64,000 bases of DNA. Source: Candidatus Thiodictyon syntrophicum (lineage in GTDB: Bacteria; Pseudomonadota; Gammaproteobacteria; Chromatiales; Chromatiaceae). Numbering within the stretch: the stretch's first letter is position 1; every line of letters starts with the position of its first letter. The notes under the pieces were generated by a model. That model was not told the origin of the DNA. It made no database searches and worked only from the letters and a program-made list of their open reading frames with translations. Made by a program: the position numbers and the translations under genes. The stretch covers positions 4,489,501 through 4,553,500 of the forward strand of contig NZ_CP020370.1 in the NCBI RefSeq assembly GCF_002813775.1, given 5' to 3'. This document shows, piece by piece, positions 19,038 through 29,643 of this stretch.

Positions 19038-20204
19038 TCACTCCCCTCGCCCCCCGCCCGACGCCCCACTGCTATGGGCCGCGCTCGCGCGGGCCTGCCG
19101 CGCCGCGGCGCCCGCCAGGTGGCCGAACAGGGCCTGATAGAGGGCGCAATGGGGGTCCTTCTCAAACAGGGTCCCATGCACCGAGAAGGCCCGCACCGGG
19201 CAGCCGCCGTGGCACAGGGCCAGGTAGTCGCAGGCGATGCAGTCACGCGCGACCAGTGCCATGGGGCGTTGGTGAAAGCGCTCCACGACCGCACTGGCGG
19301 CGAGCAACTCGCTCAGGCTTGCGCACTCGAAGATGTTGCCGAACCGGTAGTCCGGGTAGCTCGTGACCCAACAGTCGCACTGGGCGACATGACCGCGGGC
19401 GTCGATACAGAGAATGTGATTGGCACAGTCGTCGGTCCAGATGCAGGGCAGGACCGTCGGCGTTCCGCTGAAATAGGCCAATAGCTCATCGAAGGGGCCG
19501 ACCCGGACCCCATCGCGTTCGCCGCGCGCCAGCCAGACCTCGGCCAGGTCGATATAGAAGCCGATGAGCGCCGCGCTGCCCGTCGGCAACAGGCCCTTCG
19601 CCTGGTTGGACTCACCCCCGGGAAAAGGCGTATTGACCTGAAAGCTGCGAATACCGAGTTCATCGACGAAATGGCGGTAGAAGCGCTCGGCGCCGAGTTC
19701 CAGAGTCGCCGCGTTGGGCACCGCGATAACCCCCACCTCGATGCCCGCGGCGCGTGCCAGGCGCACCTTGCGCGTCCAGACCGCGTTGTAGTCGGCGGCG
19801 TCCTGCCCCCGGCGGCGCCGGTAGAGGTTGGGATAGTCCAGTGAGGTGCTGACGTTGTTGTCGAACATCTCGCGGATCACCGGATTCCACTTCGGGCTGT
19901 AACCAATCATGTTGGTCTGCAATCCGTGGGTCACGCTACGCCCGCGCGCCGCGGCGGCCGCCGCGATCAGGGCCTGGGCCCGGGCGAACCAGGACGGCGG
20001 CAGGGTCATGGCCTCACCGCCCTGCCAGTGGATCATGAGCCCGGCGATGTCCTGTTCGACGAGATGATCCAATACCTTGTCGATCAGTTCCTGTAGGCGC
20101 TCCAGGGACAGCCGGTCGTTGGTCTTGACCTCGAAGCAGTAGTCACAGTCAGCATTGCATTGGAGCGTCGGGAGGAGGATCAGTGAAAAGACCTTGGTAC
20201 TCAT
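19038..20204 (-). CDS. grrM: Cyclophane-forming radical SAM/SPASM peptide maturase (GrrM/OscB type)
   Basis: 388 residues. The radical SAM motif CNADCDYC (Cys16, 20, 23) sits in LLPTLQCNADCDYCFEV, followed by HWQGGEAM and other SAM-binding turns. The C-terminal SPASM region has paired cysteines: LPCIWTDDC, CDCW, CIACDYLALCHGGCP and DPHC, enough for two auxiliary [4Fe-4S] clusters. With the WxN-repeat peptide at 21127-21420 this is the GRRM arrangement, in which the enzyme joins a Trp ring carbon to the beta-carbon of the third residue to make a three-residue cyclophane. Cytoplasmic. It starts seven bases after the accessory gene. Identification is by motif and context. Confidence 0.82.
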   Translation of the reverse strand: MSTKVFSLILLPTLQCNADCDYCFEVKTNDRLSLERLQELIDKVLDHLVEQDIAGLMIHWQGGEAMTLPPSWFARAQALIAAAAAARGRSVTHGLQTNMIGYSPKWNPVIREMFDNNVSTSLDYPNLYRRRRGQDAADYNAVWTRKVRLARAAGIEVGVIAVPNAATLELGAERFYRHFVDELGIRSFQVNTPFPGGESNQAKGLLPTGSAALIGFYIDLAEVWLARGERDGVRVGPFDELLAYFSGTPTVLPCIWTDDCANHILCIDARGHVAQCDCWVTSYPDYRFGNIFECASLSELLAASAVVERFHQRPMALVARDCIACDYLALCHGGCPVRAFSVHGTLFEKDPHCALYQALFGHLAGAAARQARASAAHSSGASGGGRGE

Positions 20205-20211
20205 GGCGCGG

Positions 20212-21033
20212 TCAACCCCGCGACGCGGCGAAAGCGGCGAGCCCGGCGCGCAGTTCGGCCGCCGCCGCGTGCAGTTCGGCGAACAGCGACTTCACACCGG
20301 TGCAGTCGGCGTCGGACCGGGGCCATTTGAAATAGGCGCCGCAGGGGGCGAGCCAGGGGCAGTCGCGACACTCGGCCCCGGCGGCGACCAGCCCCGCGCG
20401 CCACGCCGTCACGCACGCGGGACCTTGGTCGGGCGCTACCTGGCCCTGGTCGTCCAGGATGAGGACCTCGGCCTGGTCACGCTCCAGCAATGCCCAGAGA
20501 TCGACCGGGGTGTCGTGCAGGAAGGCCAGCAACAGGCCGTGAAAGGGCTCCACCGGCTGGGCGACCGTGGGATTGTAGAGGTATCCTGCGAGTGCCTCCT
20601 GCAGTTCCGCGACCACCGCGGGAGACGCCTGATGCCCCGCCAGACGGACCGCAAAGCCGAGTGAGACCGCCAGCTTGACGGCCCGCGCCACCCCCGGGAG
20701 CAGCGCGATCGTCACGCGCACCGGATGGCGGTCCAGCAATCCGGTACATCGGTAAAGCAGGGGGAGTTGGGTTGCCGGGTCGGCCATCAGCAGGTCGATG
20801 GCCAGCCCCTCACCCCAGTGGACCAAGGGCCCCAGGTCCGCCGTCAGGTCCGTGACCTGCAGGAACAACACCCTTGATGGCACGGCGGGCCCGAGCAGGG
20901 TCCGGGCCGCCGCGGGATCGGCGGTGCGCAGGATCACGCGACGGTCGGGGCAGGCCTGAAACAGGGTCGCGGGAATGCTGAAAACGGTCTGCTCCGGATG
21001 ATCCCCGGACGGGATCGGTGTCTGGTGTGACAC
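20212..21033 (-). CDS. Accessory protein of the grr cluster with a SPASM-like Cys motif but no radical SAM site
   Basis: 273 residues, not recognised. Residues 30-200 alternate beta and alpha segments (RRVILRTADP, RVLFLQVTDL, GLAIDLLMADP, VRVTIALLPG, GFAVRLAG), resembling a degenerate radical SAM barrel, but the CxxxCxxC motif is absent. The C-terminus has five cysteines (Cys207, 222, 225, 231, 244) in ECRDCPWLAPCGAYF and SDADC, like the C-terminal half of a SPASM domain, so it probably binds an Fe-S cluster. It lies between grrA and grrM and nearly abuts grrM. It may be a non-catalytic partner delivering the peptide or electrons. Confidence 0.6.
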   Translation of the reverse strand: MSHQTPIPSGDHPEQTVFSIPATLFQACPDRRVILRTADPAAARTLLGPAVPSRVLFLQVTDLTADLGPLVHWGEGLAIDLLMADPATQLPLLYRCTGLLDRHPVRVTIALLPGVARAVKLAVSLGFAVRLAGHQASPAVVAELQEALAGYLYNPTVAQPVEPFHGLLLAFLHDTPVDLWALLERDQAEVLILDDQGQVAPDQGPACVTAWRAGLVAAGAECRDCPWLAPCGAYFKWPRSDADCTGVKSLFAELHAAAAELRAGLAAFAASRG

Positions 21034-21126
21034 GGTGGCCTGCTCCCCGCGGCGTCGGGGCGCCGCCTTGATGACTGGCCAGCCCCGGCGCTATCGCCCC
21101 GGGGCCGGGTGACAACCGGGCCTCGC

Positions 21127-21420
21127 TCAGCGCCGGTTGATCCAACTGCCGCCGCGGCCGCCGCCGTTGCGGTTGACCCAACCGCCGCCGCCACGGCGAT
21201 TGACCCAGCCGCCGCCGCGGCGGTTGATCCAGCCGCCGCGGCGGTTGAGCCAGCCCGCCTCGGCGTCCGACTGCGGCACCGCCAGGCCGCCGAAGATGGC
21301 GGCGCCGATCACGATCTTCGACCAGCGGCCCATGCCGATCAGGAAACCCCGACGGCTTTGCAGTTCGTCGTCGGTCAGTTCGGCCTCTGAGCCGGAGTCA
21401 GTAACGGATTTGTCGCTCAT
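21127..21420 (-). CDS. grrA: GrrA/OscA1-type precursor of a cyclophane-containing RiPP
   Basis: 97 residues from the ATG at 21420. The leader (residues 1-55) contains ELTDDELQSRRGFLIGMGRW and a hydrophobic stretch KIVIGAAIFGGLAV ending in AEA, which resembles an export signal with twin arginines. The core carries five W-x-N motifs: WLN 57-59, WIN 64-66, WVN 72-74, WVN 81-83, WIN 93-95, each followed by R(R/N) and separated by Gly runs. W-x-N is the substrate of three-residue cyclophane synthases, so up to five crosslinks are expected. It precedes the accessory protein and GrrM on the same strand. The product's activity is unknown. Confidence 0.85.
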   Translation of the reverse strand: MSDKSVTDSGSEAELTDDELQSRRGFLIGMGRWSKIVIGAAIFGGLAVPQSDAEAGWLNRRGGWINRRGGGWVNRRGGGGWVNRNGGGRGGSWINRR

Positions 21421-21591
21421 AGTGATTCTCGTTAGGTGTATTGCCAAAGGGCCTCATCGCTCGTCTTGTGGTTCTGCGGCACCTCCACCCGGGCCAACGG
21501 CCGGGGGGATAAGGAACGGTTCACTAACAGGCAAACAGGTCTATTTAGAGAATGCCTTACTAAGCACTCACTGACGGCGCGGCGCCGCCCT

Positions 21592-22826: not shown

Positions 22827-23468
22827 TCAGGGTTGCGACATCATTTGCCCGCGATGCGCGGCCTGGCTGGCGGCGAATTCGTCTGGCGTCACCTGGCCAT
22901 TGCCGTCGGTGTCGATAGCACTGAAAGCAGGTGCCTTGCCGGCATTGCGCATCGCATACCCCTGGGCCGCACGCTCGGCCATGCGCTTGGCCCGCGCCTC
23001 ATAGAATTCCGTTTCGGTCAGAGTGCCATCTCCGTTGAGGTCGAACTCGGCGAAGACCGGCATGTTGCGGCCCATACCCATTCCGCGACCACCAGGCCCC
23101 ATACCACCGCCGGGGCCAGCCCCGGGTCCCGCGCCCATCCCCGGACGGCCCTGCATGAGCGCCTGGCGTCCGGCCTGGAACTCCTCGCTGGTCAAGCGGC
23201 CGTCGCCGTTGCGATCGAAGTCGGCGAAGGTCGGCGCCGTGGCCGCACCACGCATGGGTGCGCCTTGGGCCGCGCGCGCGGCCATGTGCGCCCCGTGAGC
23301 GGTCGTGAACTCCTGCTCGGTAACGGCCCCATCGCCGTTCTTGTCCAGTTCGGAGAAGGTCATGGGACCGGGTGGCGCCGGGGCCTGCGCCGCCAGGGTG
23401 CCGGGTAGTAACAGGCAGGCGATGGCCAGGATCAAGCCGCGGGTGATCGTTTCGGTTTGGTGTTTCAT
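22827..23468 (-). CDS. Exported EF-hand protein, second copy
   Basis: 213 residues. Signal peptide LILAIACLLLPGTLAAQ, then four EF-hand loops: DKNGDGAVTEQEF, DRNGDGRLTSEEF, DLNGDGTLTETEF and DTDGNGQVTPDEF, with a Gly/Met/Arg/Pro-rich linker (MGAGPGAGPGGGMGPGG) separating the pairs. Same architecture as the 15569-16198 protein but only moderately similar. It follows the DUF2202 gene by five bases, so the two are cotranscribed. Confidence 0.88.
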   Translation of the reverse strand: MKHQTETITRGLILAIACLLLPGTLAAQAPAPPGPMTFSELDKNGDGAVTEQEFTTAHGAHMAARAAQGAPMRGAATAPTFADFDRNGDGRLTSEEFQAGRQALMQGRPGMGAGPGAGPGGGMGPGGRGMGMGRNMPVFAEFDLNGDGTLTETEFYEARAKRMAERAAQGYAMRNAGKAPAFSAIDTDGNGQVTPDEFAASQAAHRGQMMSQP

Positions 23469-23473
23469 CTAGG

Positions 23474-24085
23474 TTATCCTCCAACGATCGCGTCGAAAAG
23501 CGCCTCGTCGATGTATTGTGGCTGGTATTGCACGCCGGCTGCCCGCAGCAGCTTGACAAAGGCACGCAGGTGGTTCTTCGACCCCTCCATGAGGTTCTGG
23601 TAGGTGGTCTTGAGCGCCGCCTGGTCGGTATCGGCGATGGCCGTCTGCAGGTCGCTGATGTCCATATCCTCGATGGTCGCACCCACCGTCAGCGCCTGAA
23701 CCGGGGACGTCAACCCGCTGGCCGACAGTTCGTCATAGGCGTTCTGCAAGTCGGTGTTGGTGAAGTCGCCCTCTCCCGGCAGGGCGGGATCGGTCAATCC
23801 GTAGGTCCGGATCTTAGCACCGAGCGCATCGAAGTGGATCTGCTCCGAGGCGGCGATCTGCGAGAACACTGGTGTCTTCCAGCGCGCGTAGAGCTTGAAG
23901 TAGACATCGCGGGCGACCTTTTCCTCTTCGCGCATCTTGAGCAAGTCGTCAGCGGCAACAGTGCTGAGGCTGGGGACCGTCACCGGGATTTGCGACGCGC
24001 CTGGGCTGTTGGGTCCCTTGGCCATGACCGGACCGGCGCCAACGCAGGCGAGAATGACCAGGGAGCTTAGTATACGAGTTTTCAT
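23474..24085 (-). CDS. Exported DUF2202 (ferritin-like) protein
   Basis: 203 residues: signal peptide ending PVMAK, then a four-helix ferritin-like domain. Conserved segments are LLKMREEEKVARDVYFKLY, IAASEQIHFDALGAKI, LQTAIADTDQAALKTTYQNL and GSKNHLRAFVKLL; the Glu and His residues could form a di-iron site. DUF2202 proteins are periplasmic or archaeal and uncharacterised. It is the first gene of a two-gene unit with the EF-hand protein, suggesting a metal-related periplasmic function. Confidence 0.85.
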   Translation of the reverse strand: MKTRILSSLVILACVGAGPVMAKGPNSPGASQIPVTVPSLSTVAADDLLKMREEEKVARDVYFKLYARWKTPVFSQIAASEQIHFDALGAKIRTYGLTDPALPGEGDFTNTDLQNAYDELSASGLTSPVQALTVGATIEDMDISDLQTAIADTDQAALKTTYQNLMEGSKNHLRAFVKLLRAAGVQYQPQYIDEALFDAIVGG

Positions 24086-24125: not shown

Positions 24126-24512
24126 TCAGCGTCCCCGTCCCATGCCGCCCCCACGCCCGCCCCCGCCCCCGCCATGACCGTGCCTGGCCTCGTAGCCGGT
24201 GCCGTAGGGCAAGTCAGCGCGGTGACTGCCACTGCGCCCGACACCGCCGCCCCCCCCGACCGCGCCGGGACCGCCGGGTTGCTCACCCAGGGCCGGCAAC
24301 CGTGCGGCATCCGCGCCAGTGGGCGAACCCCAGGTCCTGGTCAGGGAGCCGCTCGGCAAGCTGAGGTCCAGCGGTCTGCCTGGCGCCGCGGTCGGATCCT
24401 GGCCCCAGGTCGCAGCGGCGAAGACGCAGAGCAGCACGGAGAGGGTCAGGCGGTTGATGATCGGAACTGCCTCGATGATGACGGTACCGATTCTCGCCGG
24501 ATCCTGTAGCAC
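24126..24512 (-). CDS. Small exported Gly-rich protein under the RstA-like operator
   Basis: 128 residues from a GTG at 24512 (start uncertain: no ATG is available, and the aligned sister region at 27478 uses an ATG where this has GTC). A hydrophobic signal LTLSVLLCVFAAATWGQ is followed by DPTAAPGRPLDLSLPSG, then a Gly/Arg/His-rich tail (GGGGGVGRSGSHR and HGHGGGGGGRGGGMGRGR). No known domain. Directly upstream it has the same four-repeat operator as the FapD-like gene, so it is predicted to belong to the same regulon and to act outside the cytoplasm. Confidence 0.55.
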   Translation of the reverse strand: MLQDPARIGTVIIEAVPIINRLTLSVLLCVFAAATWGQDPTAAPGRPLDLSLPSGSLTRTWGSPTGADAARLPALGEQPGGPGAVGGGGGVGRSGSHRADLPYGTGYEARHGHGGGGGGRGGGMGRGR

Positions 24513-24523
24513 CGTCTTGTCAG

Positions 24524-24563
24524 CGCCGTAACGGCTTGTATCGGTGTGTAACGGCGTGTATCT
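24524..24563. promoter_or_regulatory. Four 10-bp direct repeats, RstA-like operator, copy 1
   Basis: Units CGCCGTAACG, GCTTGTATCG, GTGTGTAACG and GCGTGTATCT follow each other with exact 10-bp spacing. Read on the minus strand they contain TACACGCCGTTACA, close to the E. coli RstA box TACATNTNGTTACA. The surrounding 75 bases (24504-24578) are nearly identical to 27491-27565. Confidence 0.7.
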
Positions 24564-24909
24564 GTGCGGCCGGCGACGGCTGGTTTGGGGCGCTGCGGCC
24601 AGGTTGGAGGTGCTGGTCCAACAGACCATGCCGAACGGGCCCCAGGCCCCCAGTCAGCCTTGGACCGAGAGGTGACGGCCGCTCACCTGTTGACGTCGGG
24701 GTGACCCGGATTACCTGACGCGGCTACTGTGTTGGATTCTGCATTTCCAACCGCTTGCGGTCGTCACTGCCGCGAGATGGGCCAGAGGCGTTACAATATT
24801 CAGCTATACTTATGGAGAGATGGTGTAAGTGGGTAGGTTCGCTGCTGCCTGATCGGCGTCGCGGCTACCCGGTGATTGGCGTCAACAGATCGTTCATGTT
24901 TGGAGAATC

Positions 24910-25314
24910 ATGATGTTATCCAGCCGGCTTTCCCGAGCTTCACTCCTGGTAGCAGGGTTAATGCTCTGCGCATCAGCCTGGCAGGCCCAGGCGTTTGAAA
25001 CCGTCATCCAGGTTTCGCCAAGCGCTTTGAATATTGGCAGCGCAGGCAATGTTGTGACGGTGCATACCGAAGTTCCCTATGGCGACGTGGAGGTCCACTC
25101 GGTCTATCTGAACGGTGTTCTGATCGCCAGCTCGAAAGCCGATGATCGGGGTAATTTCGTCGCCAAGTTCGACATCGATGCGATCAAGACACTGAATGGC
25201 TTGATTATCGGCGGCGATAATAAACTGACACTGACCGGTTTGACCACCTACGGGGAAGCCTTCTCGGGCACTGATTGGGTGCGAGTAATCAATATCTTGC
25301 CGCGCAGTCGTTGA
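24910..25314 (+). CDS. Exported beta-rich protein of unknown function
   Basis: 134 residues with a clear signal peptide (LLVAGLMLCASAWQAQA, cut before FET). The mature part alternates beta strands (VIQVSPSALNIGSAGNVVTV, VEVHSVYLNG, NKLTLTGLTTYG) and looks like a single Ig-like or cohesin-like sandwich; no cysteines. GGAGA ribosome site. I do not recognise a family. It faces the double-glycine peptide gene tail to tail, inside the FapD/FapF-like region. Confidence 0.75.
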   Translation: MMLSSRLSRASLLVAGLMLCASAWQAQAFETVIQVSPSALNIGSAGNVVTVHTEVPYGDVEVHSVYLNGVLIASSKADDRGNFVAKFDIDAIKTLNGLIIGGDNKLTLTGLTTYGEAFSGTDWVRVINILPRSR

Positions 25315-25379
25315 TCTTCTGCGAGCGCGGCTGCACTGCCCCCGGTGACGGGGGCGGTGCATCAACCACGGCTTACGGC

Positions 25380-25622
25380 CTATTTCTTGCCGTATTTCGG
25401 ACCGGTGCCGTCAAGCTTCGGGATACCGGTGCCGGTGCAGACGCCGGTGCCGGGGCCCTTGCCACCGGCCACGACCTGGTCCATCTGTGCGGCGCTGAGC
25501 TGAATCGGGGCTGGCTGGCTGCTTTGCCCCTGAGCGACCTGGGTCGCAGTGGTCTGATCCGCCGCGGCTGCCGTGCAAGCGGCGCTGGCCAGCAGGGCGA
25601 TCAACAAGGCTTTTGCGTTCAT
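25380..25622 (-). CDS. Tiny Sec-exported peptide with a double-glycine processing motif
   Basis: 80 residues from the ATG at 25622, with GAGGAA eight bases before it. Signal peptide ALLIALLASAACTAAAA (cut near residue 21), then a 32-residue propeptide ending PIQLSAAQMDQVVAGG. This is the LS..xMD.V.AGG form of a bacteriocin-type double-glycine site, cutting after Gly54. The remaining 26 residues, KGPGTGVCTGTGIPKLDGTG followed by PKYGKK, are small, basic and contain one Cys. A predicted periplasmic C39 peptidase and a FapF-like outer-membrane protein lie just upstream on the same strand, so it is probably their substrate. Confidence 0.7.
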   Translation of the reverse strand: MNAKALLIALLASAACTAAAADQTTATQVAQGQSSQPAPIQLSAAQMDQVVAGGKGPGTGVCTGTGIPKLDGTGPKYGKK

Positions 25623-25832
25623 TTGAATTTCCTCAAGCGACTGTTGTGGAGCACATGGTTCGGCTATCAACCCATACTGACAGCCGCGTCCGCAAACGGC
25701 CCCTCGTGAACCGCGTGTCACTTGGGGCGTTTCTCCGTGTGGCGGTAGAGACATTATTCACTGAGGGTGTTTCGGCACCATGACCAGGGAGTATCGCTTG
25801 GTTTCCCATCGTGTCAGACTGTATCAGTGCCA

Positions 25833-26915
25833 CTAAAAGCGGTACGGCAGTGACACCGAGACGATGAAGTCGTTGGCGTCGTCCGTGACCCCGGCCGCCG
25901 TCGAGAGGTTCAGAAACAGGTTCTTGCCCAGTGTAAAGTCGGCGCCCAGGTTGATGTAACCGGCCGTGGCGGCCGCGCTGCGGTAGGCCTCGCCGTCCAG
26001 CGGTTCAACCTTATCATTGCCTGGAAAGTCAAAGGACAGCCCCGCATCGAGTGAAATAGCGGGGGTCGCGGCCAGGGTGACGCCCAGGGTCAGGCCAAAG
26101 CGATCGGCCGGCGTGAGACGGCCGGTCTGATAGCCCGCACCGTCCCAAAAGGTCGCGGTTCTGGACCAGGCGTAGCCATAGGATACCGTGCCATACAGCG
26201 CCACCGGCTCGCTGCGCTTGACGGCTGACAGTGACAGCGTGAGCGAGCGCAAGCCGTCGCCAATCGGTACGGGGGCGAACGGGGCGCTGCCGTTGTCATG
26301 GGTGTAGGCAAGTCGCGCCACCAGTGACGGCCAGGATGCGGTTTCCTGCGTGAGCCGCTTGCCAAGACTGACCGATACATCACCCGTGCCGTCGGCTCGC
26401 CCCAACGGGTAGTCGCGTTGGATATAAGGCAGATACAGCGCGGCGGCCATGCCCCAGGGGAGGCCGGCCTCCAGACCCAGGCCATAGGCGATGGACTCAT
26501 AATGGTCATCGCCCTGTCCGTCGTGGAACCAGGTCAGGCTCGGGGTAAGGCGGAAGGTGCCGCTAGGCAGCAGCACCAGCCCCTTGGTGACCAAGGCCTC
26601 TTCCATCGCGCTGTTCGCGGCTTGCGCCTCCACCGGGGGCTTGGCGGCGTTGGCATCGAGGCCGATGAGCGGCGACCCGCCGCCCCGTTTGCCGGCGGCC
26701 AGTTGTCCTTCCAGGGCCTTGACGCGCGTATGCAACTGCTGGTTGATCGCCCGCTGGGCCGCCAGTTGTTGCCGTAACGATTCGACGGTTGCGGTGGCGG
26801 AATCAGCGCCAGGCGCCCGGGAGGCCGCCGCGTCTTGCGGCGTTTGTGACAACGCAAGCGTGGGCACGGGTGTTGCGCAGCAGGCCAGCAAAAGGCGCAG
26901 GGCGGTGTTCTTCAT
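25833..26915 (-). CDS. FapF-like outer-membrane beta-barrel transporter
   Basis: 360 residues: signal peptide ending ALSQ, a short coiled coil (residues about 42-75, VESLRQQLAAQRAINQQLHT) of the type that trimerises at the FapF N-terminus, then MEEALVTKGLVLLPSGTFRL, the conserved entry into a 12-strand barrel, and alternating strands ending SVSLPYRF with a terminal Phe. FapF secretes functional-amyloid subunits through the outer membrane in Pseudomonas. It starts eight bases after the C39 peptidase gene. No FapB/C-type amyloid repeat protein is in the window, so the cargo here is probably different. Confidence 0.75.
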   Translation of the reverse strand: MKNTALRLLLACCATPVPTLALSQTPQDAAASRAPGADSATATVESLRQQLAAQRAINQQLHTRVKALEGQLAAGKRGGGSPLIGLDANAAKPPVEAQAANSAMEEALVTKGLVLLPSGTFRLTPSLTWFHDGQGDDHYESIAYGLGLEAGLPWGMAAALYLPYIQRDYPLGRADGTGDVSVSLGKRLTQETASWPSLVARLAYTHDNGSAPFAPVPIGDGLRSLTLSLSAVKRSEPVALYGTVSYGYAWSRTATFWDGAGYQTGRLTPADRFGLTLGVTLAATPAISLDAGLSFDFPGNDKVEPLDGEAYRSAAATAGYINLGADFTLGKNLFLNLSTAAGVTDDANDFIVSVSLPYRF

Positions 26916-26923
26916 GGTGATAC

Positions 26924-27478
26924 TCAGGGAGACGGCGGGCGGGTAACGACAAAGGCCATTCCCTCCATCCAGACGGCAGTGAAGCCGGCGATGGACAGGG
27001 TGCGGTTCCCAAAGGCCGGGTCGGCGAGTAAGACCCGATCGCCCGTGACCCCGTTGAACACCACATAATGGTTGTAGCCGTGCTGATTGATGGGCACGAT
27101 GGGGGCGTGAAAGACGCGCAGGTCATCGAATCCGAGGTGCTGGTAGGCACTGCCCCGATAACCGCGACCCGTGACGAAGTGCTGCAAGTCCAGCAAGGAG
27201 AACCCGCCGCGCGCCTTGACCTTGGCCGGGGCGGTCAGCTCCAGCATGCGCGCGGCGGCGAGGCGCTCGCTGACCGGATCGTTGAAGCCGTAGGTGAGCA
27301 CCGTGGCCACCGCTGCCGCGGCACAACTGCTTTCCCACTGCTGCATGACGACACCGCGCTCTCGGATTTCCTTGAGGCTGCGAAACGGTTGCGGTGTCTG
27401 CGCCGGCGCCGGCGCCGCGGCCAGGCACAGGGTGGCGGTGAAAATACTCAGAACGGCCTTGGTGATCATGGTGCCCAT
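26924..27478 (-). CDS. FapD-like periplasmic C39 peptidase
   Basis: 184 residues from the ATG at 27478 (27469 also possible). Signal peptide (VLSIFTATLCLAAAPAPAQ), then a C39 domain: WESSCAAAAVATVLTYG with catalytic Cys52, GYNHYVVFNG with His138, and LLADPAFGNR with Asp154; the Gln before Cys (QQWESSC) is also there. Unlike ABC-transporter C39 domains it is a free exported protein. It heads an operon with the FapF-like gene and is preceded by the four-repeat operator shared with the two-component system. The likely job is trimming exported peptides at double-glycine sites. Confidence 0.8.
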   Translation of the reverse strand: MGTMITKAVLSIFTATLCLAAAPAPAQTPQPFRSLKEIRERGVVMQQWESSCAAAAVATVLTYGFNDPVSERLAAARMLELTAPAKVKARGGFSLLDLQHFVTGRGYRGSAYQHLGFDDLRVFHAPIVPINQHGYNHYVVFNGVTGDRVLLADPAFGNRTLSIAGFTAVWMEGMAFVVTRPPSP

Positions 27479-27510
27479 GCTCGACCCGCCCTGTAGCAAC
27501 ACCTTGTCAG

Positions 27511-27550
27511 CGCCGTAGCGGCCTGTATCGGTGTGTAACGGCGTGTATCC
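27511..27550. promoter_or_regulatory. Four 10-bp direct repeats, RstA-like operator, copy 2
   Basis: Units CGCCGTAGCG, GCCTGTATCG, GTGTGTAACG and GCGTGTATCC, exact 10-bp period. It lies between the divergent FapD-like gene and the response-regulator gene, so it could serve both. OmpR-family regulators bind such tandem half-sites as dimers. Confidence 0.7.
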
Positions 27551-27590
27551 GTGCGGTCAGCGACGCCGCGTTCTCGGCTAAGATGACGGC

Positions 27591-28304
27591 ATGAACCCCA
27601 GCGCCCGCATCCTGGTGGTAGACGATGATCCCGCACTGCGGGACCTCCTCTGCGCCTATCTCACCGACACCGGCTTCGTCGTCGACCTGGCCGGCGACGG
27701 GGACGCGATGCGCCGCGCCATGCAACAGGCCATGCCGGATGCCATCGTCCTGGACCTGATGCTGCCCAACGAAGACGGCCTGGTCCTCACCCGCGCGTTG
27801 CGGACGCACTCCAGCGTGCCGATCCTGATGCTGTCGGCCCGCGGCGAGGAGATCGACCGGGTGGTAGGCCTGGAACTCGGCGCCGACGACTACCTGGCCA
27901 AGCCCTTCAGCCCACGGGAGTTACTGGCCCGCCTGCGCGCCCTGCTGCGGCGAGCCCAAGGCCCGGCACCGACGCCGACACCGCACCCGCAGGGGGAGCG
28001 CTTCGGCCCCTACCGGCTCGACCAGGGGGCCCGTCGGCTGCTGCGCGGGGACCAGGACCTCGGCCTGTCCGGCGCCGAGTACGACCTGCTCAAGGTCTTC
28101 ATCGAGCGGCCCAATCGGGTGCTGTCCCGGGACCTGCTCCTGGATCTCCTCAAGGGCTACGAGCGCGATCCCTATGACCGCACCGTGGACATCCGGGTAG
28201 CACGCCTGCGGCGCAAGATCGAGCCCGACCCTGCCAATCCGGTCTATGTCCGCACCCTGCGCGGCGCGGGCTATCTGTTCAATCCGCGCGGCGCCGAATC
28301 CTAG
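27591..28304 (+). CDS. OmpR/RstA-family response regulator
   Basis: 237 residues. Receiver domain ILVVDDDPALRDLL with phospho-acceptor Asp55 in VLDLMLPNEDG and Lys104 in YLAKPFSPREL; winged-helix DNA-binding domain from about residue 135 with LSGAEYDLLKVFIERPNRVL, RTVDIRVARLRRKIE and VRTLRGAGYLF. It follows the four-repeat operator by 40 bases, suggesting self-regulation, and is followed by its kinase ten bases downstream. RstA-like by operator similarity; the sequence alone says OmpR family. Confidence 0.9.
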   Translation: MNPSARILVVDDDPALRDLLCAYLTDTGFVVDLAGDGDAMRRAMQQAMPDAIVLDLMLPNEDGLVLTRALRTHSSVPILMLSARGEEIDRVVGLELGADDYLAKPFSPRELLARLRALLRRAQGPAPTPTPHPQGERFGPYRLDQGARRLLRGDQDLGLSGAEYDLLKVFIERPNRVLSRDLLLDLLKGYERDPYDRTVDIRVARLRRKIEPDPANPVYVRTLRGAGYLFNPRGAES

Positions 28305-28314
28305 GGCCGGTCGC

Positions 28315-29643
28315 ATGTCCTGGAATCTGACGCTGCGCCAGCAGAACGCGCTGCGGCTCGCCCTGGTCTTCGTGTTGTTCGAGGTGCTGACGACGCTCGC
28401 CGTGGTCTTCCTGCTCATGCAGCCCCTGGCCCGGCGGGCGACCAGCGATCTGGCCGGCCTGATGGTGCTTGCCGCCCAGACCTGGGCCGAACTGCCGCCC
28501 GAGACCCGCCCGGCCTTCGAGCGGGAACTGACGGCGTCCCACGGGCTGACGCTGGCCGCCGCGCCGCCGCCGGGGGCGGTGTGGACGGCTTGGCACGGCA
28601 TCTATGTGCGCGAACTGGAGGCGCAACTGACACAACGCACCGGGGCGCCCCTGGACTTGGCGAGCGTCGCCGCGGGGGCCGAGCCCTGGTTGTGGGCTGG
28701 GGTGCCGACGGCCGGCCGGACGCTATGGCTGGGCTTTGCGCGCAGCCGCGTCGGCCCCCAGCCGCTGGCCGCCGCCCTGCTGACCCTGTCGGCCGCCCTG
28801 CTCCTGGCTGGCCTTGCCGCCTGGTGGCTCGGTCACAGCACGGTGGCGCCGCTCAAGCGTTTTGACGCCGCCGCCGCCGTCCTCGGCCGCGGCGCGACCC
28901 CGGAGCTCCTGCCGGAGACGGGTCCACGCGAACTGGCGTGCCTGGCGCGCCGCTTCAACCAATTGGCCCGCCAGGTCCATGACCTGCTGGAGGCGCGGAC
29001 CACCCTGCTGGCGGGCCTGTCCCACGACCTGCGCACCCCGCTGGCACGGATGCGCCTGGCGCTCGCGATGCTCCAGCGGCGCCCCGATCCGACCTGGATC
29101 GAGCGGCTGGAAACCGATGTGGAGGAGATGAACCGGCTGGTGGGGGACGTCCTGGAACTGGCCCGCGGCCTGGACGGCGAGGCCGCGGTACCGGTGGACC
29201 TGACCGCCATGCTGGAGGCCTTGGCCGGGCGCGCCTGGGAGGCCGGCGCCGAGGTCACAGTGCAGTGTCCGGACCTGTGCCTCAGCGCCCCGCCCGCGGC
29301 CTTGCGGCGGGTGCTCGGCAACCTCCTGGCCAACGCACAGCGCTATGCCGGCGCCGCACCGATCGAACTGCGCGCGCAATTGAGCGACGGCGCCTGCCTT
29401 ATCGGCATCATCGACCAGGGTCCGGGCATCCCGGAGGACCAACTGGAGGCGGTCTTCCGGCCCTTCCACCGGGTCGACGCCTCCCGCAGCCCGGTCACTG
29501 GGGGCACCGGGCTGGGGCTGGCCATCGTGCGCCAGTTGGCCCAGGCCAACGGCTGGCAGGTCTGGTTGGAGAATCGCCGCGGCGGCGGCTTGGCAGCCTG
29601 GGTGAGGGTGCCGACACCCATTGGCGAGCCGATGGCGCAGTAA
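28315..29643 (+). CDS. Sensor histidine kinase, EnvZ/RstB type
   Basis: 442 residues. Two membrane helices (VFVLFEVLTTLAVVFLL near 20-40 and LTLSAALLLAGLAAWWLG near 155-175) bound a periplasmic loop of about 115 residues; then HAMP, phosphorylated His in AGLSHDLRTPLARMRLAL (near 237), and HATPase motifs LLANAQRY, IDQGPGIPEDQL and GGTGLGLAIVRQL. The start at 28315 follows the regulator stop. Partner of the preceding response regulator; the signal is unknown but its periplasmic loop is of sensing size. Confidence 0.92.
   Translation: MSWNLTLRQQNALRLALVFVLFEVLTTLAVVFLLMQPLARRATSDLAGLMVLAAQTWAELPPETRPAFERELTASHGLTLAAAPPPGAVWTAWHGIYVRELEAQLTQRTGAPLDLASVAAGAEPWLWAGVPTAGRTLWLGFARSRVGPQPLAAALLTLSAALLLAGLAAWWLGHSTVAPLKRFDAAAAVLGRGATPELLPETGPRELACLARRFNQLARQVHDLLEARTTLLAGLSHDLRTPLARMRLALAMLQRRPDPTWIERLETDVEEMNRLVGDVLELARGLDGEAAVPVDLTAMLEALAGRAWEAGAEVTVQCPDLCLSAPPAALRRVLGNLLANAQRYAGAAPIELRAQLSDGACLIGIIDQGPGIPEDQLEAVFRPFHRVDASRSPVTGGTGLGLAIVRQLAQANGWQVWLENRRGGGLAAWVRVPTPIGEPMAQ

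Follow-up and report, generated by a model that had tools for sequence, protein, structure and literature searches.

A Sec-Exported C39 Peptidase, a FapF-Like Barrel and a Small Leader-Bearing Peptide in Candidatus Thiodictyon syntrophicum: a Probable Secretion Route and a Leader Motif Recurring Beside C39 Genes

A Candidate Two-Step Secretion Locus

The window analysed here, the whole stretch of 64,000 nucleotides from contig NZ_CP020370.1 of the purple sulfur bacterium Candidatus Thiodictyon syntrophicum (positions 4,489,501 to 4,553,500), carries a locus encoding a free-standing C39 peptidase, a FapF-like outer-membrane barrel and an 80-residue precursor peptide, which probably form a two-step, Sec-plus-FapF-type secretion system for a small basic peptide. 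The precursor would cross the inner membrane by Sec, and the C39 peptidase in the periplasm would recognise the leader LSAAQMDQVVAG through the hydrophobic residues at positions -12, -7 and -4. A cut at or next to the end of the leader would free a core of about 27 residues with one Cys, which would then exit through the FapF-like barrel. Through shared direct repeats, a divergent OmpR/EnvZ-type pair probably regulates its own genes as well as the C39-barrel operon and a Gly-rich gene. The leader would be one version of a periplasmic double-glycine code for FapD-type cargo, probably including FapE and FilA. Cleavage, barrel exit, regulation and any function of the peptide are inferences.

The window sits in a contig of 6,837,296 bases, and the genome searched comprises 3 contigs with 7,738,984 bases. 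All features of the locus are present and lie on the minus strand, except for the response regulator and the sensor kinase (plus strand). In transcription order on the minus strand come the C39 peptidase gene, the barrel gene, which starts 8 bases after it, the peptide gene and, farther on, the gene for the Gly-rich protein. The central features are as follows.

26924..27478, minus strand: Sec-exported free-standing C39 peptidase, FapD/FilB-like, 184 aa (Pfam, NCBIfam, AlphaFold model)
25833..26915, minus strand: FapF-like outer-membrane beta-barrel with N-terminal coiled coil and short helices, 360 aa (profile, model, Foldseek)
25380..25622, minus strand: cargo precursor peptide, 80 aa, with Sec signal, spacer, C39-type leader and core (conservation in the genus; ratio of non-synonymous to synonymous polymorphism, pN/pS)
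25464..25499, minus strand: leader motif LSAAQMDQVVAG, residues 42-53 (sequence; same motif near C39 genes elsewhere)
25383..25463, minus strand: predicted mature core GKGPGTGVCTGTGIPKLDGTGPKYGKK, residues 54-80, 27 aa (cut predicted from the leader register)

Leader Motif Beside C39 Genes

Gene content, conservation, motif association and structural kinship were established by computation. At the loci of other Chromatiaceae C39 genes, short secreted proteins were found with a motif resembling the leader of the window peptide. The motif was surveyed in 80 loci obtained from the genome collection with a C39 profile, the scan having given at least 577 stretches that encode relatives. Six-frame open reading frames (ORFs) with a Sec-like signal followed by the motif were collected, and those within 4 kb of a C39 gene were counted as near; the signal-peptide rule was a crude, home-made one that misses some likely signals (e.g. 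in L122). The strict motif, L[ST]xx[QE][ML]DxV[TS]AG, was found in 96 ORFs at up to 4 kb from a C39 gene (592 kb) versus 5 farther out (610 kb), and in 41 of the 80 loci; all five far ORFs sit in loci that also have near ones. Sixty permuted versions of the strict motif gave a mean of 0.03 near matches and a maximum of 1. With the four contigs of first sight removed, 88 ORFs in 37 of 76 loci remained. A relaxed motif gave 117 near and 5 far ORFs in 54 of the 80 loci, against a mean of 1.0 and a maximum of 8 for 40 permutations.

Tandem paralogues of the cargo are common, so the motif ORFs are not independent of one another. Beyond the motif, 95 complete cores fall into 47 clusters mutually unrelated at E<1e-3, and an NCBIfam/Pfam scan of 71 cargo proteins gave no family matching more than one of them. 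Position -8, free in the search, is Q in 27 and E in 12 of the cluster representatives (39 of 47). Sixty of the 80 loci have a FapF-like ORF no more than 4 kb from the C39 gene. By record title, the strict-motif loci span Gamma-, Beta- and Alphaproteobacteria, Acidobacteriota (Edaphobacter) and Omnitrophota, some of them metagenome bins. An earlier note on this DNA, made from the letters alone, had suggested looking in other genomes for C39-FapF pairs with an adjacent short signal-peptide protein carrying an AGG motif; signal-bearing motif ORFs beside C39 genes recur at the frequencies given above.

Four loci (L068, L070, L073 and L091) carry three to five paralogous cargo genes in a row, of about 79-120 aa and all belonging to the same 16-member cluster; their SPVTxxQxN...GNxAxVxSGN-like cores resemble curli-type repeats.

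In the family (194 genomes), the motif in its DNA form occurs in 11 of the 14 genomes with a strong C39 match (E<1e-20) and in 37 of the 180 others. A backward control pattern matched 22 of the 194 (5 of the 14, 17 of the 180), so the bare DNA pattern is noisy. When 30 family loci were checked for a signal, the motif was kept in 7 of 9 from strong-C39 genomes and in 1 of 21 others, this one being G107, where the contig is broken. G185, which has no C39 match, shows signal plus motif at a contig end.

The Peptide Is a Conserved, Selected Gene

The 80-residue peptide consists of a signal peptide followed by LSAAQMDQVVAGG. Its leader motif begins after residue 41, behind a long spacer, and the predicted 27-residue core has an isoelectric point of 9.75, one Cys and no hydrophobic stretch (26 residues if cut after GG). 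Of 210 genomes searched in the order, 5 gave a peptide match at E<1e-29, and all 5 belong to the genus, of which 8 genomes were available. The C39 gene was found in 4 of these 8, all among the 5 with the peptide. The fifth is G107, whose contig breaks off within the barrel gene, a short way upstream of a peptide whose last 47 residues are identical to those of the window peptide. The remaining 3 genus genomes, all draft assemblies, gave neither a peptide nor a C39 match at 1e-5. Weak matches (0.001-0.01) were obtained in five other genomes and at a second place in the window genome, and one of them, in G165, adjoins a C39-barrel pair.

In L021-L023 the peptide, barrel, C39, regulator and Gly-rich genes stay together. 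The co-occurrence of the peptide with the C39-barrel pair in relatives, whose absence would have told against the proposal of the earlier note, is kept within the genus. For the five peptide copies, pN/pS is 0.17 in the leader (12 residues), 0.18 in the core and 0.82 in the signal plus spacer; leader and core are under purifying selection and the spacer is not. The exported peptide called by the earlier note is a real, selected gene tied to the C39-barrel pair within the genus. A defence role was considered with PADLOC on five proteins, and the sole match at E 0.1 or below, DrmC for the peptide (0.029), was judged to be chance.

C39 Peptidase and FapF-Like Barrel

The peptidase matches Pfam Peptidase_C39 (PF03412) at E=5.6e-15. 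Its best NCBIfam match is FilB (8.5e-24), followed by FapD (1.9e-21), both far below the curated cut-offs. Cys52, His137 and Asp153 are invariant in 15 relatives, and in a set of 25 relatives the catalytic Cys/His/Asp are invariant or at least 90% kept, in agreement with the intact triad read from the sequence earlier. The AlphaFold model (predicted local distance difference test, pLDDT, 91.8) matches the C39 domains of PCAT1, ComA and LahT.

The coiled-coil/barrel protein had been called FapF-like, and this assignment is upheld by profile and structure. The protein itself matches NCBIfam FapF at E=1.3e-16, under the curated cut-off, and a profile of 32 barrel relatives reaches the FapF crystal chains at 1.6e-47. 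The barrel model (pLDDT 84.4) shows a helix at 38-77, a low-confidence linker, short helices at 97-110 and strands from 121, and its best Foldseek match is FapF 5o67 (E 3.9e-22). One FapD-like and one FapF-like match were found in the window genome, both at this locus.

In two other loci, the FapF-like barrels (L025 8597-9793 and L194 3212-4405) hold a leader-like motif in the linker (LDEAALERVSAG and SSADLDTQRGG), which may make the barrel a further C39 substrate.

Leader Register and Predicted Cut Site

In the available text of PMC6363468, double-glycine leaders are described with Leu-12, Glu-8 and Leu-7 before GG, GA or GS, and Val, Leu or Ile at -4. In the same text, the co-crystal of a C39 domain and its leader shows Leu-12, Leu-7 and Val-4 buried in a hydrophobic groove, and Glu-8 could be changed without loss. 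A cut after AG puts the L of the motif at -12, Q/E at -8, M/L at -7 and V/I at -4, so the LSAAQMDQVVAG-type motif keeps the double-glycine leader register. This register predicts a cut after ...VVAG, giving the 27-residue GKGPGTG..., and not after AGG. The 26-residue product starting KGPGTG that the earlier note expected is accordingly disfavoured, the cut site being probably one residue before the end of AGG. The rest of the route that the note had sketched, with Sec entry, C39 cleavage and barrel exit, gains comparative support from linkage in the genus and from the general leader motif, which are consistent with it.

FapE, FilA and a Possible Pathway-Wide Code

The FapD cut-off was passed by 12 of 59 genomes in the family to which G559 belongs (a Stutzerimonas record and the source of L038), and 10 of the 12 loci were read. 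In all 10, FapE carries L/I-x-D-x-E-L/M-x-x-L-R-G-[RK] right after the signal, with the register L-12, E-8, L-7, L-4 and G-2. Twenty looser Fap-like loci were fetched; a FapE-like motif was matched in 17 of the 17 tested, with a wider expression that admits some chance matches, and three loci were set aside, of which L199 has a different GG form and L200 has four VTAG-type ORFs. Of 15 places below the FapD cut-off, five Fil-type loci were read, and in all five the FilA-type protein adjoining the C39 gene (a label that we assign from position) carries M/L-D-D-x-x-L-x-x-V/I-T/S-G-Q behind its signal, in the same register.

The FapD substrate was called unclear or undetermined in the available text of two papers from 2017 and 2018 (PMC5557850, PMC6173800). 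The same portions state that Fap proteins are without a canonical C39 site, that FapE alone was fully N-terminally processed by mass spectrometry, with no peptides in about the first 70 residues, and raise FapF itself as a possible FapD substrate. FapD and its active-site Cys38 were needed for FapC secretion (PMC5557850, as far as available). The leader motif offers a concrete candidate answer on the FapD substrate; the predicted FapE cut lies nearer to residue 38, as against the roughly 70 residues lacking peptides in mass spectrometry. The conservation in FapE alone could have other causes, and the weight comes from unrelated cargo sharing the register.

We lean slightly towards the broader reading that FapD-type periplasmic C39 peptidases as a whole use a double-glycine-type leader code placed directly behind the Sec signal, so that Fap, Fil, nap and many unnamed loci would be one Sec-C39-FapF pathway in several phyla. 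The substrates would be FapE, FilA and, with the window peptide among them, dozens of small cargo families that are unrelated. The residues of such a code would be L-12, E/Q-8, L/M-7, V/L-4 and G at -2 or -1.

Comparison with Known Systems

The window locus shares with the Fap amyloid secretion system of Pseudomonas a Sec-exported C39 peptidase with catalytic Cys and a coiled-coil barrel matching FapF in fold and profile, and the signal of FapE is followed by a leader-like motif of equal register. It differs in that the window locus is without FapA/B/C/E genes, its cargo is one short peptide, and its peptidase and barrel score under the FapD and FapF cut-offs. A FapE-profile search of the window genome gave no match, an empty answer that shows nothing by itself, and the best hit of a FapB-like query there was E=0.24, FapC having been left out of the search. 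The statement of the earlier note that no amyloid subunit is present thus holds for FapE- and FapB-like genes, FapC falling outside the search. A full Fap system in the genome was rejected on these results, together with the single FapD-like and FapF-like matches.

In the nap island of Neisseria gonorrhoeae, the available text of PMC11798529 describes the C39 peptidase NapP, the FapF homologue NapF and the short basic GG peptides NapA-C, for which periplasmic processing was proposed. The likeness to the window locus is one of gene content: a C39 peptidase, a FapF homologue and short GG peptides. That text does not describe Sec signals on the Naps and suggests a holin-like protein for inner-membrane transit, and the regulators of the island differ from those of the window locus.

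The Fil system (FilA, FilB, FilC) is related through FilB, the best NCBIfam match of the window C39, and through the FilA-type leader motif in 5 of 5 loci. It differs by a FilA-type cargo of about 145 aa, where predicted, and by further conserved genes in those loci. The exporters of the peptidase-containing ABC (ATP-binding cassette) transporter (PCAT) and ABC transporter maturation and secretion (AMS) type (LahT, PCAT1, ComA) share the C39 fold and the leader register -12/-8/-7/-4; their peptidase is fused to the ABC transporter and cuts in the cytosol, whereas the window C39 is a free 184-aa enzyme with a Sec signal, and its precursor has a Sec signal too. The separation from ABC-type export drawn in the earlier note is retained for the window peptidase. 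Set beside the PCAT leader pattern (L-12, E-8, L-7, V/L/I-4 and GG, GA or GS at -2/-1), the window class has matching residues at the hydrophobic and -8 positions and mostly Ala at -2.

To speak of a new secretion system, which the earlier note put forward as a candidate, is too strong. It is not categorically new, because FapD-FapF pairs outside Fap and the nap island are already published: fapD-fapF pairs were reported in five further phyla in the available text of PMC6173800, and the island in that of PMC11798529. No description of a leader signature in Sec-exported cargo of FapD-type peptidases was found in the literature searched, outside which lie most subscription papers and bioRxiv preprints. 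The shared leader code is the part worth testing. It makes the question of the FapD substrate directly testable by one peptide-cleavage assay and provides a way of finding cargo at further C39 loci, including where family models are silent, as for the 71 cargo proteins scanned. If true, it would join amyloid, pilus-like and small-peptide secretion in one pathway.

Counter-Evidence and Alternative Explanations

Several points weigh against the secretion reading and its general code. Cleavage, secretion and expression of the peptide are predicted from sequence. The strict motif is missing from 39 of the 80 loci and the relaxed one from 26, and 20 of the 80 are without a FapF-like ORF by the test used, some of them at contig ends. 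The residue choices of the motif were refined after viewing matches from the same loci. The class-wide DNA pattern, found in 81 of 369 genomes (backward control 13), matches many places distant from any C39 gene and was not used as support; many of the 81 genomes show a recurring LDLVVAG-type site that presumably belongs to a housekeeping protein, and only 8 matches, in 5 genomes (G000, G329, G346, G364, G439), lie near a C39 match. Among the Fap-like loci set aside, L198 is without the motif. Leader sharing in FapE is expected by descent within one family, so the 10 of 10 are not independent events. Finally, Ala stands at -2 in 44 of the 47 VTAG-class cluster representatives, where the described leaders have Gly (PMC6363468, available text), so the exact bond cut is uncertain.

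L198 (G239) is one of seven FapD-profile matches spread over several contigs of one genome; the stretch holds a C39 gene and a secreted protein, possibly a barrel, with no recognisable leader peptide.

The alternative that survives best, unlikely on balance, is a reduced Fap-like fibre system, in which the peptide or the Gly-rich protein would be a small subunit or nucleator and the C39 enzyme would mainly activate the barrel or fibre, a role suggested for FapD and FapE. In favour of it stand the homology of the machinery to Fap and the Gly-rich, low-complexity character of the core; many cargo proteins of the relatives also have Ala- or Asn/Gln-rich, fibre-like repeats, and tandem paralogues are common. 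On the other hand, the core is just 26-27 residues long, basic and without amyloid-type repeats, and no convincing FapB- or FapE-like gene was found in the genome by a search that left out FapC.

Very unlikely is a peptide signalling loop, in which the adjacent EnvZ-like kinase would sense the exported peptide and control the operon. The kinase/regulator pair is kept beside the peptide in L021-L023, and shared promoter repeats precede two secreted-protein operons. Against this, the neighbourhood of the related locus L024 gave no match to a pair of this kind, nothing found ties the outer domain of the kinase to the peptide, and OmpR/EnvZ-type pairs usually sense cues other than peptides. Scarcely probable, lastly, is that the C39 enzyme does not cut the peptide, their nearness reflecting shared regulation and signal peptidase alone releasing a periplasmic or surface protein: cleavage is a prediction and the motif starts only after residue 41, behind the long spacer, but the leader motif is kept where the spacer drifts, and it follows C39 genes through cargo families that are unrelated.

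Regulators, Promoter Repeats and Neighbouring Genes

The remaining features of the locus are as follows.

27591..28304, plus strand: OmpR-family response regulator, divergent from the C39 gene (profiles; kept in L021-L023)
28315..29643, plus strand: EnvZ-like sensor histidine kinase (profiles; kept in L021-L023)
27515..27549, plus strand: two direct GTA[AG]CGGCnTGTATC copies 20 bp apart in the C39-regulator intergenic region; candidate site for the regulator
24528..24562, plus strand: further copy of that promoter element, ahead of the Gly-rich gene; candidate site for the regulator
24126..24512, minus strand: secreted Gly-rich protein, 128 aa from GTG at 24512 (uncertain start; in-frame ATG at 24629)

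A two-component system is present, as the earlier note said, and its label as RstAB-like was rejected, since the OmpR (255 bits) and EnvZ (206 bits) models score higher than RstA (160 bits) and RstB (134 bits), every score being under the cut-off. One stretch of 26 bases is present in two identical copies in the window, where the chance expectation is none: one stands between the C39 gene and the regulator gene, the other ahead of the Gly-rich gene. No third place was found in the window at up to 3 mismatches. Two GTA[AG]CGGCnTGTATC units, 20 bases apart, make up the pair that holds each copy, and direct repeats of such type suit an OmpR-family response regulator. At 27515..27549, both units are present in L021 and L022 and one in L023; this pair is absent from the list of a general repeat finder, which gave repeats at 10-bp spacing for the second element. 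The second element (24528..24562) is also found in L148, and was not found upstream of the Gly-rich gene in L021-L023.

The Gly-rich protein has relatives in four other genus genomes (L021, L022, L023, L148) and no match beyond the genus in the loci searched; family-profile, PADLOC and relative searches used its inner stretch, 24126-24485, which does not open on a start codon. No C39 leader was seen in it, and it is possibly a co-regulated partner.

Between the peptide and Gly-rich genes, a secreted 134-residue protein is encoded at 24910-25314 on the plus strand, with a weak bacterial immunoglobulin-like match (E 0.05). The corresponding place in G107 retains a match to the final 23 residues only, so the gene may be undergoing decay in that genome. 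EF-hand and DUF2202 proteins (22827-24085, minus strand) adjoin the Gly-rich gene, and this pair is also beside it in G107 (L148), where DUF2202 matches only residues 1-88. Farther away, 19038-21447 on the minus strand encodes three proteins: a radical S-adenosylmethionine-like one (CxxxCxxC near the start, by eye), a partner, and one of 106 residues that ends in GGW[VI]NRRGG repeats. NCBIfam at E<=0.01 gave no match for the partner, the repeat protein or the next upstream gene, the radical S-adenosylmethionine-like protein being left out; in its make-up, the region looks like a cluster for a ribosomally synthesised and post-translationally modified peptide.

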